Notes under the pieces: generated by a model
Seen by the model: the letters and a program-made list of their open reading frames with translations, nothing else
What the model was told of the DNA's origin: nothing
Database searches by the model: none
Made by a program: the position numbers and the translations under genes
Shown here: in pieces, positions 34,294 through 39,872 of the stretch
Numbering within the stretch: the first letter of the stretch is position 1
Layout of the letters: every line of letters begins with the position of its first letter
Assembly: GCA_902775565.1 (NCBI GenBank)
Contig: CACYMP010000013.1
Coordinates: forward strand, 1-64,000
Length of the DNA stretch: 64,000 bases
Direction: 5' to 3'
DNA from: Oscillospiraceae bacterium
GTDB lineage: Bacteria > Bacillota > Clostridia > Saccharofermentanales > Saccharofermentanaceae

Positions 34294-34923
34294 TTGAATA
34301 CAGACGCCGGAACAGTCATTGGAATACCTTTGATCATAAATTCGCTTTTGCTCGGTGCAGGACTCGCAATGGATGCGTTCTCAGTCTCGATAGCCAACGG
34401 GCTTGAAGAACCTTCTATGCGCAAGAGAAGGATATGTGCCATAGCCGGCGTGTACGCCTTGTTCCAGTTCGCAATGCCGCTTATCGGATGGTTTTTCGTT
34501 CATTCGCTCGCCCTCGCATTCCGTGCTTTCCAACCGTTTATCCCTTGGATAGCACTTATTCTTCTTTCAGTTATCGGAGCCAAGATGATCTGGGAGGGAC
34601 TTGCAAAAAAGACTCACGGGGATCAGGAGACTGCTCAAAACAGCAAGCCGTCATCAGGAAAGATCACGCTGGGAGTTTTGCTCGTACAGGGTGTCGCGAC
34701 ATCTATTGATGCTCTTTCGGTCGGTTTCACGATAGCGGATTATACAGTATTGTCTGCGATCGTATCTTCACTTATCATCGGCATCGTTACGTTCCTTATA
34801 TGTATCGCGGGCCTGGTCTTCGGGAAGAAACTGGGCGAAAAGTTCTCTGATAAAGCTACTGTTATCGGCGGCTTTATACTTATCGGCATCGGAATTGAAA
34901 TCTTCATAAAAAGTTTTTTATAA
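34294..34923 (+). CDS. mntP: MntP-family manganese efflux pump
   Basis: 209 residues in six hydrophobic helices. The two family motifs with membrane aspartates are present: LGAGLAMDAFSVSIANGL and GVATSIDALSVGFTI. The protein should export Mn(II) across the membrane. The start is a TTG with AGGAG six bases upstream. A charged loop of about 30 residues (KKTHGDQETAQNSKPSSG) separates the two halves. Confidence 0.88.
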   Translation: MNTDAGTVIGIPLIINSLLLGAGLAMDAFSVSIANGLEEPSMRKRRICAIAGVYALFQFAMPLIGWFFVHSLALAFRAFQPFIPWIALILLSVIGAKMIWEGLAKKTHGDQETAQNSKPSSGKITLGVLLVQGVATSIDALSVGFTIADYTVLSAIVSSLIIGIVTFLICIAGLVFGKKLGEKFSDKATVIGGFILIGIGIEIFIKSFL

Positions 34924-35012: not shown

Positions 35013-38000
35013 ATGGACAGAAAGCTATTTAAAAAGTCTGTTTTGCAGATAAGCGTATTCATTCTTTGCCTTTTCCTGACGGCGTCGGTTTTCCATGCAA
35101 GTTACCCGGCTTTTGCTGACGGCGATGAGAATTCCACAGAAGTTAAAGTAGACCCCGTCCATTCCAATGACGGTTATTCCGCTGTTCTTTACGACAATAA
35201 GAGCGGTCTGCCGACATCTGAAGCCAATGCGATCGTTCAGACGGAAGAAGGCTTTATCTGGATCGGCAGCTACAGCGGTCTTATCAGATATGACGGCAAT
35301 ACTTTCCAGAGCTTGAGTACAGACGCAGGCATCTCGAGTGTTGTCAGTCTTTTTGTTGATTCATCCAACAGACTCTGGATCGGTACCAATGACAGCGGTG
35401 CAGCCGTTATGGAAAAGGGACAGTTCAGAAAATACGGCAGAAAAGAAGGTCTCGGTTCTCTGTCCGTAAGGACCATATGTGAAGATGCCCAGGGCAACAT
35501 TCTTATCGGTACAACCGCCGGCATCTCATACGTTGATAAGAACATGGAACTTCACACGATCGAAGCAGGCCTGATCGATCATGAGTATATCAGGAGTCTT
35601 AAGGCTGGTAAGGACGGTACCGTTTACGGAGTAACGGTCGAAGGAAGCGTGTTTACTATTAATGAACTCAGACTGACCGGTTTCTATAGTGATAAGTCGC
35701 TTCATATCACAGGCGCAAGATCCGTTCTTCCTGACGATGAGAACCCCGGATATCTCTATATCGGAAATTCTGGCAATACGATTTACTACGGAAGCTTTAT
35801 CGGCGGCACGTTCTCGCTTTCGAGAAGATTCCTTACCGGAGATAAACTGTCCGTTAACTCCATAGAGAGATTTAACGGCTTTATGTGGGTCTGTACCGAT
35901 AAGGGTATAGGCTATTTCGATGATTACGATTTCTATCCTGTCAATGATATTCCGATGACCACATCGGTAGAGAACATGATGGCGGATTATAACCACAACC
36001 TCTGGTATGTCTCTTCACAGCAGGGCGTAATGAAGGTCGTTGCCAATCAGTTCACCGATATCTTCAATAAATACGGTATCCCGAGCGGCGTCGTTTATAC
36101 AACCTGCGTATATGATGACTGTCTTTATATCGGAACCAAGAATTCCGGTCTTGTCGTTATCAAGGGCGGAAAGGTTCTTAAACAGCTCCCGGTCAAATAC
36201 GGAGATGAAGATTTCGATCTTATCGGACTGTTTTCCAACAGCAGGATCAGATCCATTGATGTCGACAGCAACGGAACAATCTGGTTCTCAACGTTCGGTG
36301 ATCACGGGCTTGTCGGTTATAAGAACGGCAGGATAAGAAAGATAAGGTCTGCTGAAGGACTGCCTTCAGACAGAGTCAGGCACGTTCTGGAACGCCGTGA
36401 CGGCTCGCTGCTCGTACCGTGTACCGGCGGACTTGCTGTTATTGAAGGCGGCACGGTCACACGCGTCTACGGCGAGGATGACGGAATAACTAATGATGAG
36501 ATCCTTTCTGCGTCCGAAATGGATAACGGCGACATCGTCCTCGGCACTGACGGCGGCGGTATCTTCGTTATCGGCAAGACGGGGGTGAAGTGCATCAACG
36601 TTGATGCGGGACTAAGTTCCGACGTCGTAATGAGGGTCAAGAAAGACCGTACCAGAAACATCATGTGGTTTGTAACCAGCAACTCCATCGGTTATCTGGA
36701 TGCGGATTATCAGATAAAGATCATTGATGCATTCCCATACCTCAATAACTTCGATCTGTATCAGAACAGCAAAGATCAGATGTGGGTTTTGAGCAGCAAC
36801 GGTATCTATGTAGCCAAGACTGATGATATGCTCAGCGGCAAACCGTTCAATTTCCTGTATTACGGAATCTATAACGGCCTGCCCGGAATATCAACATCCA
36901 ACTCCTACAGTGCGCTAACAGAAGACGGATACCTTTATATCGCGTGCACAACGGGTGTTACCAGAATAAATATCGATCACTCTGTAGATACCGTTGACAG
37001 CGTAAAAGCTGCAGTTCCTTTCATTGAAGCCGACGGCGTCATGATCTACCCGAAAGCAGACGGAAGCTTTTCTGTCGGCGCGAACGTAAAGAAGCTGACC
37101 GTTTACAGCTATGTATTTAACTATTCGCTTATCAATCCTGAAGTTACTTATAAGCTTGAAGGCTTTGATAACAATGCGGTTACCGTTTTGAGGAGCAATC
37201 TCCAGCCTGTTGATTACACGAACCTTAAGGGCGGAAGATATTACTTCAACATGAAGATCGTCGATCCTCATAACGGTCAGTCGAATGAGATCAGAGTCCA
37301 GATATTCAAGCAGAAGCATTTCTATGAATACATGTGGTTCAATATCACACTTGCCATTCTGATTGTTGCTCTGGTCTATATAGTCTTAAGGAAATACATA
37401 GACCGAAGGACCGACAAGCTCATAGCAAAGAACAATGAGCAGAAGAAACTCATCAGAGAGGTCGTAGAAGCCTTTGCACGAGTAATCGATATGAAGGACA
37501 AATATACGAGAGGTCACTCTATAAGAGTTGCTCATTATACGGCTATCCTTGCCAAAGAAATGGGATGCGATGAGGATACCGTCGAGAAGTACTACAATAT
37601 CGGACTTCTCCATGATATCGGAAAGATCGGCATCGATGACGGCGTTTTGAACAAACCCGGAAAGCTCAATGACGATGAGTATGCAACGATACAGTCGCAT
37701 TCCGCTCTTGGTTTTGATACGCTCAAGGACATCAGCATCATGCCGGATCTCGCGATCGGCGCAGGCGCACATCATGAGCGTCCTGACGGCAAGGGATATC
37801 CTAACGGACTTAAGGGTGATGAGATCCCTGAGGTTGCCCGTATCATCGCTGTAGCAGATACCTTTGACGCCATGTATTCGAACCGTCCGTACAGGAACAG
37901 GATGCCGTTTGCAAAGGTGCTTAAGATCATTAAAGAGATAAGGGGTACCCAGCTCGATGCGGATGTTGTCGACGCTTTCTTAAGGCTTGTCGATCAGGGA

Positions 38001-38081
38001 ATGTTTAAAGCTCCTGATGATGACAGCTGGCCTGAGAAGGATGACGAAAAGAAAGATGAGAACAAGCCCGGGAAGGAATGA
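35013..38081 (+). CDS. Membrane receptor with two-component-type beta propeller, Y_Y_Y domain and HD-GYP output
   Basis: 1022 residues. A signal peptide (about 1-35) precedes an extracellular run of Reg_prop repeats (GLPTSEANAIVQ, GFIWIGSYSGL, RLWIGTND and so on, about 55-660) forming a propeller, then a Y_Y_Y Ig-like domain (about 690-765). A single transmembrane helix (about 773-795) leads to a cytoplasmic HD-GYP domain with HDIGKIGI (H867, D868) and HHERPDGKGYP, which normally hydrolyses cyclic di-GMP. It is the layout of hybrid two-component sensors with the kinase replaced by a phosphodiesterase, so an outside ligand would control cyclic di-GMP. No strong ribosome site is seen before ATG 35013. 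Confidence 0.88.
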   Translation: MDRKLFKKSVLQISVFILCLFLTASVFHASYPAFADGDENSTEVKVDPVHSNDGYSAVLYDNKSGLPTSEANAIVQTEEGFIWIGSYSGLIRYDGNTFQSLSTDAGISSVVSLFVDSSNRLWIGTNDSGAAVMEKGQFRKYGRKEGLGSLSVRTICEDAQGNILIGTTAGISYVDKNMELHTIEAGLIDHEYIRSLKAGKDGTVYGVTVEGSVFTINELRLTGFYSDKSLHITGARSVLPDDENPGYLYIGNSGNTIYYGSFIGGTFSLSRRFLTGDKLSVNSIERFNGFMWVCTDKGIGYFDDYDFYPVNDIPMTTSVENMMADYNHNLWYVSSQQGVMKVVANQFTDIFNKYGIPSGVVYTTCVYDDCLYIGTKNSGLVVIKGGKVLKQLPVKYGDEDFDLIGLFSNSRIRSIDVDSNGTIWFSTFGDHGLVGYKNGRIRKIRSAEGLPSDRVRHVLERRDGSLLVPCTGGLAVIEGGTVTRVYGEDDGITNDEILSASEMDNGDIVLGTDGGGIFVIGKTGVKCINVDAGLSSDVVMRVKKDRTRNIMWFVTSNSIGYLDADYQIKIIDAFPYLNNFDLYQNSKDQMWVLSSNGIYVAKTDDMLSGKPFNFLYYGIYNGLPGISTSNSYSALTEDGYLYIACTTGVTRINIDHSVDTVDSVKAAVPFIEADGVMIYPKADGSFSVGANVKKLTVYSYVFNYSLINPEVTYKLEGFDNNAVTVLRSNLQPVDYTNLKGGRYYFNMKIVDPHNGQSNEIRVQIFKQKHFYEYMWFNITLAILIVALVYIVLRKYIDRRTDKLIAKNNEQKKLIREVVEAFARVIDMKDKYTRGHSIRVAHYTAILAKEMGCDEDTVEKYYNIGLLHDIGKIGIDDGVLNKPGKLNDDEYATIQSHSALGFDTLKDISIMPDLAIGAGAHHERPDGKGYPNGLKGDEIPEVARIIAVADTFDAMYSNRPYRNRMPFAKVLKIIKEIRGTQLDADVVDAFLRLVDQGMFKAPDDDSWPEKDDEKKDENKPGKE

Positions 38082-39192: not shown

Positions 39193-39361
39193 AAAAAATC
39201 TCCTTTTGAATTAAGTGATTCAAAGGAGAAATGCGCTGCAAAAAAGCAAGTTATTTAGTTGGATATTACCTGAAAATGGGCGCAGTTCTCCTTAAAGGAG
39301 CTGCATAGAAACCGTTCATAAGATGTATGTTAGGTGTTATCCAGTGCATCTGTTTGCGCCC
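39193..39361 (-). promoter_or_regulatory. Attenuator leader of the MFS exporter gene
   Basis: Reading on the minus strand, 39230-39193 is an intrinsic terminator: TCTCCTTTGAAT, loop CACTTA, ATTCAAAAGGAGA, six T, then the exporter ATG. The segment 39293-39280 (AAGGAGAACTGCGC) can pair with GCGCATTTCTCCTT (39236-39223), which contains the terminator's 5' arm, at 13 of 14 positions: an antiterminator. The same segment can instead fold into the hairpin 39304-39282 (GCAG-CTCC/GGAG-AA-CTGC), which would leave the terminator free. A third pairing joins GGGCGCA (39361-39355, at the leader ribosome site) with TGCGCCC (39284-39278). The exporter's own ribosome site is inside the terminator 3' arm. The segment lies within the leader reading frame, so ribosome position would decide the fold. 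Confidence 0.82.
39266..39349 (-). CDS. Leader peptide of the MFS attenuator (27 residues)
   Basis: A short frame runs from ATG 39349 to TAA 39266, preceded nine bases upstream by GAAAGGG. The peptide starts MHWITPNIHLMNGFYA and ends APLRRTAPIFR. Codons 16-18 form the 5' arm of the anti-antiterminator hairpin, and codons 19-24 encode the segment that can pair with the terminator arm. A ribosome held at about codons 11-17 would break the first hairpin and free the second segment, allowing read-through. The RR pair recalls the basic motifs of macrolide-stalling leader peptides, but I do not recognise this peptide. Translation is inferred, not shown. Confidence 0.65.
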   Translation of the reverse strand: MHWITPNIHLMNGFYAAPLRRTAPIFR

Positions 39362-39461
39362 TTTCTTTAGATTTCACGATAATACTAACATAAAAAATCA
39401 GAATGTGAAGTGGTATGGGCAATATACTTCGTTTAAAATAGAAGCAGGGAGGGACGACGTT

Positions 39462-39872
39462 ATGAATGAAGAATTGATCAGAAGTGCTCTTGGAGTATTG
39501 GATAATTCTTATGCGCCCTATTCGCATTTTCACGTGGCTGCGGCGGTACTTACCGATACCGGTAATGTCTATACGGGTGTAAATGTCGAGAATGCTTCCT
39601 ATCCGGCAGGTATCTGTGCGGAGTGCAATGCGGTAGCAAAGGCTGTATCATGCGGGGAACGCAAGATAAGAGCTGTTGCCATAGTCGGCAGGGATTCCCA
39701 GGGAAAAAGCAGCGGATATGTATCACCCTGCGGTATCTGCAGACAGGTGTTAAGGGAATTCTCCGTTCCGCAAGAATTGAAGGTTATCCTGGCGAAGGAT
39801 GTTGGCGATTATAAAGAGACGACGCTCGAAGAACTGCTTCCTGCAAGCTTCGGACCGGAATCACTCGGCTGA
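39462..39872 (+). CDS. cdd: Cytidine deaminase
   Basis: 136 residues, normal for the tetrameric bacterial type. It converts cytidine and deoxycytidine to uridine forms in pyrimidine salvage. Zinc ligands and catalytic glutamate are in NVENASYPAGICAECNA and PCGICRQVL, giving C-x-E and C-x2-C. ATG 39462 has AGGGAGG upstream; the longer frame from 39327 overlaps the divergent leader and is not supported. Confidence 0.94.
   Translation: MNEELIRSALGVLDNSYAPYSHFHVAAAVLTDTGNVYTGVNVENASYPAGICAECNAVAKAVSCGERKIRAVAIVGRDSQGKSSGYVSPCGICRQVLREFSVPQELKVILAKDVGDYKETTLEELLPASFGPESLG

Follow-up and report, generated by a model that had tools for sequence, protein, structure and literature searches.

The DNA upstream of a minus-strand MFS exporter gene in the 64,000-nucleotide stretch analysed here (the window; source genome of 2.6 Mb) probably encodes a ribosome-operated attenuator of transcription, and in addition of translation, in which a short leader peptide together with a ligand would stall the translating ribosome. 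The element is a four-segment attenuator with pairings between the leader Shine-Dalgarno (SD) region and the 3′ end of the leader ORF (1:2, here P1), between this 3′ end and a downstream segment (2:3, antiterminator), and between that segment and the arm that follows it (3:4, terminator hiding the exporter SD). Comparison of homologous sequences indicates that the attenuator is real and conserved, and the pattern of conservation fits control by the ribosome. The features are listed in Table 1.

Table 1. Positions in the window of the leader, its RNA segments and the exporter gene.
Feature	Positions	Strand	Basis
Predicted promoter TTCACA-16-TAGTAT, extended −10 (TG)	39382..39409	minus	consensus scan: 1 found, 1.1 expected by chance
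Segment 1, leader SD region AAGAAAGGGCGCA; GGGCGCA is the 5′ arm of P1	39355..39367	minus	sequence; swap test
Leader ORF, 27 codons + TAA (MHWITPNIHLMNGFYAAPLRRTAPIFR)	39266..39349	minus	frame open in homologues; HMM match
Codons 1-14 (MxWITPNIQLMNGF), conserved as peptide; presumed nascent-chain sensor	39308..39349	minus	dN/dS 0.19
Local hairpin, competitor of antiterminator	39282..39304	minus	−8.8 kcal/mol in window
Segment 2, 3′ half of ORF (AAGGAGAACTGCGCCC); antiterminator 5′ arm and P1 3′ arm	39278..39293	minus	codons 15-26 dN/dS
Segment 3 GCGCATTTCTCCTTTGAAT; antiterminator 3′ arm and terminator 5′ arm	39218..39236	minus	swap test z −7.3
Segment 4, terminator 3′ arm AAAAGGAGA, includes exporter SD	39199..39207	minus	sequence
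Intrinsic terminator; stem 39229-39218 / 39211-39199, T-run 39198-39193	39193..39229	minus	stem −11.1 kcal/mol
MFS exporter, 364 aa	38098..39192	minus	Pfam MFS_1 E 9.5e-15

The leader sits between the exporter gene and a cytidine deaminase gene on the opposite strand (39459-39872, plus strand). Among named relatives, the exporter is closest to proteins of MAGs assigned to Oscillospiraceae (93% identical), uncultured Clostridia (88%) and Saccharofermentans (68%). The HP1165, Tet(40) and TetA(P) models match it weakly, all far below cut-off, a PDB search by sequence gave no relatives and a plasmid search with the exporter gave no match; no close characterised relative was thus found with the resistance models, the PDB sequence search or the plasmids. 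The predicted promoter is only suggestive, since one such match is expected by chance; it would place the transcript start just some 10-15 nt upstream of the leader SD, and TGxTATAxT-like motifs occur at a similar position in the orthologues. A gene for an MntP-like small membrane protein (LGAGLAMDAFSVSIANGL) was observed near the exporter gene at 34294-34923, and an MntP-like gene also adjoins the MFS gene at loci of genus g28 (L118 and L124), so that the two genes possibly form a conserved neighbourhood. Convergent with the exporter, a large plus-strand gene (35013-38081, 1022 aa) ends just downstream of the exporter stop; by eye, its product has beta-propeller-like repeats, a transmembrane segment and a C-terminal HD-GYP-like domain.

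An initial annotation, made from the window alone, had described a 27-codon frame, a terminator touching the exporter and three competing pairings, and all of these features were recovered at their coordinates; they go far beyond chance. The frame reads as ATG, 26 further codons and TAA and has its own SD, GAAAGG. The last T of the T-run (39193) lies directly before the exporter ATG (39192), and the exporter SD, AAAAGGAG, is found within the terminator 3′ arm as had been proposed. The T-run just before the exporter start is present in 63/63 homologues, and the arrangement with the exporter SD inside segment 4 recurs in all homologues. A simple terminator scan of the window missed the real terminator, probably because the stem has a bulge. 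The antiterminator pairs 39293-39280 (AAGGAGAACTGCGC) with 39236-39223 (GCGCATTTCTCCTT) through 13 Watson-Crick pairs and one G-U, and the 7-bp P1 pairs GGGCGCA (39361-39355) with TGCGCCC (39284-39278). The states are mutually exclusive, as claimed: the three alternative pairings exclude each other by sequence, and terminator and antiterminator share segment 3. The 191-nt leader as a whole folds better than 200/200 dinucleotide shuffles (z −3.4).

For the analysis of its distribution, a protein search for the exporter was performed in 99 related genomes. The exporter was found in 42 genomes of the genus with 43-93% identity (in one genome split over two contigs), and one remote match came from another family. 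The leader lies at the same place in 40/40 orthologues with upstream DNA fetched; 39 fit a 25-28-codon pattern and the remaining one (L073, genome G023) carries a shortened variant. A peptide HMM, which matches the window's own genome as a single copy (E 1e-18), found the leader once per genome in 42/42 exporter-bearing genomes of the genus, while no match was listed in the 17 genus genomes without exporter; it also matched additional members of the genus and one other genus of the family. Every full-length or truncated leader that was opened precedes an MFS gene, and no other type of gene was found under control of an MxWITPNIQLMNG leader among the loci. A class-wide sample added leaders from another family (f29), where they likewise precede MFS orthologues, and a search with the f29 exporter yielded a dozen more loci whose leaders are divergent (MTWKTTNIHLMKG, MYWKQTNLQLKKG and MSWKNINVQLIKG, for instance). 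The leader family looks restricted to parts of Clostridia, because the sole match in a phylum-wide sample of 398 genomes was the window's own genome. A marginal match in the window's family (G126, E 0.0025) was rejected as a leader, and a match in G414 is not the MxWITPNIQLMNG leader. No leader was found in plasmids (the lone match being chance) and no f29-type 3′ module in viral contigs. Two loci are rearranged. Around position 1500 of L162 (G594) leader and terminator are intact and the exporter is cut after about a dozen codons, followed by unrelated DNA, which makes this an orphan leader from deletion or insertion; in L132 (G523, 535-2220) about 1.6 kb of other DNA lie between leader-terminator and MFS gene, which looks like an insertion at the terminator.

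Selection on the frame was analysed with 63 aligned leaders, whose consensus for codons 1-13 is MxWITPNIQLMNG. The dN/dS ratio is about 0.19 in codons 2-14 versus 0.75-0.9 in codons 15-26, and codons 1-14 contain zero in-frame stops in the 63 homologues, compared with 91 and 43 in the other frames. Trp3 and Gly13 are invariant, and substitutions at Asn7 and at Leu10 are limited to three sequences each. Early stops occur in eight leaders (seven at codon 19, one at codon 22), and these, among them L073, L122, L123 and L125, keep the downstream RNA (e.g. GGGGGTAGTGCGCCTTTTTTCGG) but not the codons. The split in dN/dS and the retention of RNA past the early stops together indicate that the first half of the frame is kept as peptide and the second as RNA. 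The early-stop leaders tend to be without P1 (Mann-Whitney p 0.0001), and their local hairpin tends to be stronger (p 0.003), both with ancestry uncorrected; P1 is weak or absent in several f29 homologues; the sequences suggest that P1 and the local hairpin may replace each other as the element hiding segment 2. Macrolide leaders such as those of mef(E), erm(K) and msr(D) carry an R-x-R motif. R/K-x-R/K is absent from codons 1-14 of the window peptide, as is any MRLR-like stall motif. Fragments of the peptide were absent from open-access papers (subscription papers lying outside that search), and the leader peptide family is apparently undescribed.

Covariation was assessed by a swap test, in which the pairing energies of cognate and swapped segments were compared for 18 representatives less than 75% identical in the frame, using 5000 permutations. 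The pairing energy of segments 2 and 3 is −19.5 kcal/mol for cognates and −15.0 kcal/mol for swapped partners (z −7.3, 0/5000), and that of segments 1 and 2 is −13.7 versus −11.0 kcal/mol (z −4.7, 0/5000), shared ancestry not being fully removed in either comparison; the control pair 1:3 gave z −1.8. Antiterminator columns 5, 6, 8 and 10 each hold several Watson-Crick pair types, and compensatory combinations are GTACTGCG with a GTAC-containing arm (L069, L070), GTCAG/CTGAC (L060) and GATAG/CTATC (f29). Corresponding changes in P1 are GGGCACAG/CTGTGCCC in L071 and GGGCGTAGTA/TACTATGCCC in L072. The local hairpin, which had been put forward as a further competing state, is strong in the window but not generally conserved across the family: 18 divergent representatives have a mean of −6.3 versus −5.5 kcal/mol for shuffles. 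A comparison with homologues had been set beforehand as capable of refuting the proposed switch. In it the frame, the antiterminator and the leader-SD pairing proved to be kept with compensatory changes, always before the same MFS exporter, and the local hairpin only partly; ribosome-dependent attenuation is well supported because this comparison did not refute it.

In order to relate ribosome position to RNA structure, partition-function folding was performed with a 30-nt ribosome mask, with values for the window and as a mean. P1 and the terminator form without a ribosome. With the P-site at codon 13 and segment 4 not yet transcribed, the antiterminator probability is 1.0 in the window and 0.93 in the mean, and when only the start codon is masked the values are 0.92 and 0.70, respectively. 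From codon 18 onwards a ribosome causes loss of the antiterminator, and the terminator forms. For the complete transcript with a single ribosome at codon 13, the equilibrium in the window still favours P1 and terminator, so that the on state depends either on timing during transcription or on an additional ribosome at the start codon; with the latter, the antiterminator persists on the complete RNA (1.0 and 0.91), although the 3:4 score is also partly high. With the P-site no further than about codon 14, segment 2 (from nt 57) stays outside the normal ribosome footprint. This limit coincides with the point where the conserved peptide ends, and a putative arrest near codons 13-14 is argued mainly from that coincidence. 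According to the folding model, antitermination would result if transcription proceeds while a ribosome is held no later than about codon 14.

The off state is supported by folding and conservation. In this modelled state, segment 2 would be unavailable either through P1, in which the leader SD pairs with the 3′ end of the leader ORF, or through a ribosome running over that end. The terminator would form, ending transcription at the start codon of the exporter and hiding the exporter SD in its stem. For the on state, we infer stalling, its codon, an inducer and a substrate of the exporter as follows. The nascent MxWITPNIQLMNG peptide would hold the ribosome on the first 13-14 codons in concert with a ligand, for which an antibiotic that targets ribosomes, or a related natural product, is the most likely candidate. 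Free segment 2 would pair with segment 3 as the latter leaves RNA polymerase, the terminator would be blocked and the released SD would let the exporter be made. Drug-induced stalling is plausible by analogy with cplR, vmlR and mef(E). As the sensor peptide differs from known leaders, the nature of the inducer may give a clue to an antibiotic or natural product encountered by these bacteria and to the substrate of the exporter.

The same attenuator could also respond to a general signal, namely any slowing of early translation, whether by start-codon stalling with tetracycline-, lincosamide- or pleuromutilin-type drugs or by starvation, the peptide then being a tuned slow frame. The antiterminator formation obtained with the start-codon mask alone agrees with such a signal, E. 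coli toiL answers several drug classes at different codons (PMC12121999), and the three-codon cplR frame is likely stalled with little context specificity (PMC10201436). However, strong amino-acid selection on codons 2-14, with Trp3 and Gly13 invariant over two families, is needless for a slow frame, and a general signal is regarded as rather unlikely.

Two further explanations were considered and rejected. A single conserved Trp codon could act as a sensor of tryptophan charging as in trp leaders: TGG at codon 3 is invariant in the 63 leaders, and a ribosome there leaves segment 2 free, with a mean antiterminator probability of 0.57 (P-site at codon 3). There is, however, one Trp codon and no run, several other positions are conserved at the amino-acid level, the controlled gene encodes an MFS exporter and not a biosynthetic function, and in the window a ribosome at codon 3 leaves the terminator and P1 intact; amino-acid attenuation is accordingly very improbable. 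Slightly more improbable still is a trans-acting or ligand-binding RNA switch working without a ribosome, to which the short frame would be incidental. Such a switch could draw on the mutually exclusive pairings, which exist without a ribosome, but the low dN/dS in codons 2-14 and the lack of in-frame stops point to translation, and a conserved aptamer-like loop outside the frame was not seen. Moreover, no Rfam family matched the window at gathering score, and a permissive search returned weak, sub-threshold and chance-like matches to the leader. Attenuation through peptide-dependent stalling is therefore the preferred reading.

A second type of leader was observed at three loci (L151, L152 and L155), where a different conserved peptide, MNGLGY[TI]P[VI]CSSSS..., precedes MFS genes whose products share 32-34% identity with the f29 exporter and is followed by a similar RNA module (GGGATTACTGCGC[CT]CTTTTTTA and its partner GTAATTCC). 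These sequences suggest that sensor peptides may be exchangeable on one switch module. We tentatively propose that MxW[I/K]TxNIxLMxG peptides form a new class of arrest peptides that stall at about codon 13-14 with a small molecule outside the usual macrolide and phenicol inducers, and that the RNA module is coupled to exchangeable sensor peptides. If this is true, the MFS pumps of Clostridia are served by a modular set of chemical sensors carried on the ribosome. The more than 60 loci described here extend the ribosome-sensing attenuators of Clostridia from rumen and gut by a leader-peptide family that is well supported and apparently undescribed, and they offer exact targets for testing in the form of residues (Trp3, Gly13) and base pairs. 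The frame, cleanly divided into one half kept as peptide and one kept as RNA, is a good natural test case for nascent-peptide sensing.

In trp-type attenuators the position of the ribosome decides between the pairings 1:2, 2:3 and 3:4. The window leader has the same four-segment plan but no run of regulatory codons; its conserved feature is the peptide and its target an exporter. A leader frame of 28 codons is found upstream of the Tn916-type tet(M) resistance gene (L074), but its peptide MLCIPMVMHKNPSDKSIYHWDFYALLGF is without similarity and the gene encodes a ribosomal protection protein; kinship with the DNA upstream of tet(M), tet(S), tet(O) and tet(W), raised by an apparent likeness of the SAPFFGK end, was rejected after sequence comparison. 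The mef(E)/mel system of Streptococcus likewise has an MFS efflux gene under macrolide-dependent transcription attenuation with a leader peptide (PMC4335068). Its leader MTASMRLR bears the R-x-R macrolide stall motif, which codons 1-14 of the window peptide do not have, and no close relation between the mef(E)-type and window exporters was found. The consensus uORF peptides of vmlR from Bacillus (MIN) and lsa(A) (MAGN) (PMC10201436) share with the window leader a short frame and a terminator, but their frames have 3-4 codons and the resistance genes that follow are ABC-F genes. In C. difficile cplR, mutants in the uORF start codon, terminator stem and poly-U showed combined transcription and translation attenuation, and the window leader resembles it in the uORF, the antiterminator/terminator switch, the terminator ending at the start codon, the hidden main SD and a 5′ hairpin holding the uORF (PMC10201436). 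It differs in that the cplR uORF, MR[I/M], has 3 codons and precedes an ABC-F gene, compared with 27 codons, a conserved 13-residue peptide and an MFS exporter here. By its architecture, known here from the sequence, the leader would work like cplR, vmlR and mef(E) attenuation, and it apparently represents a new family among the ribosome-sensing attenuators, one with a 27-codon sensor peptide.
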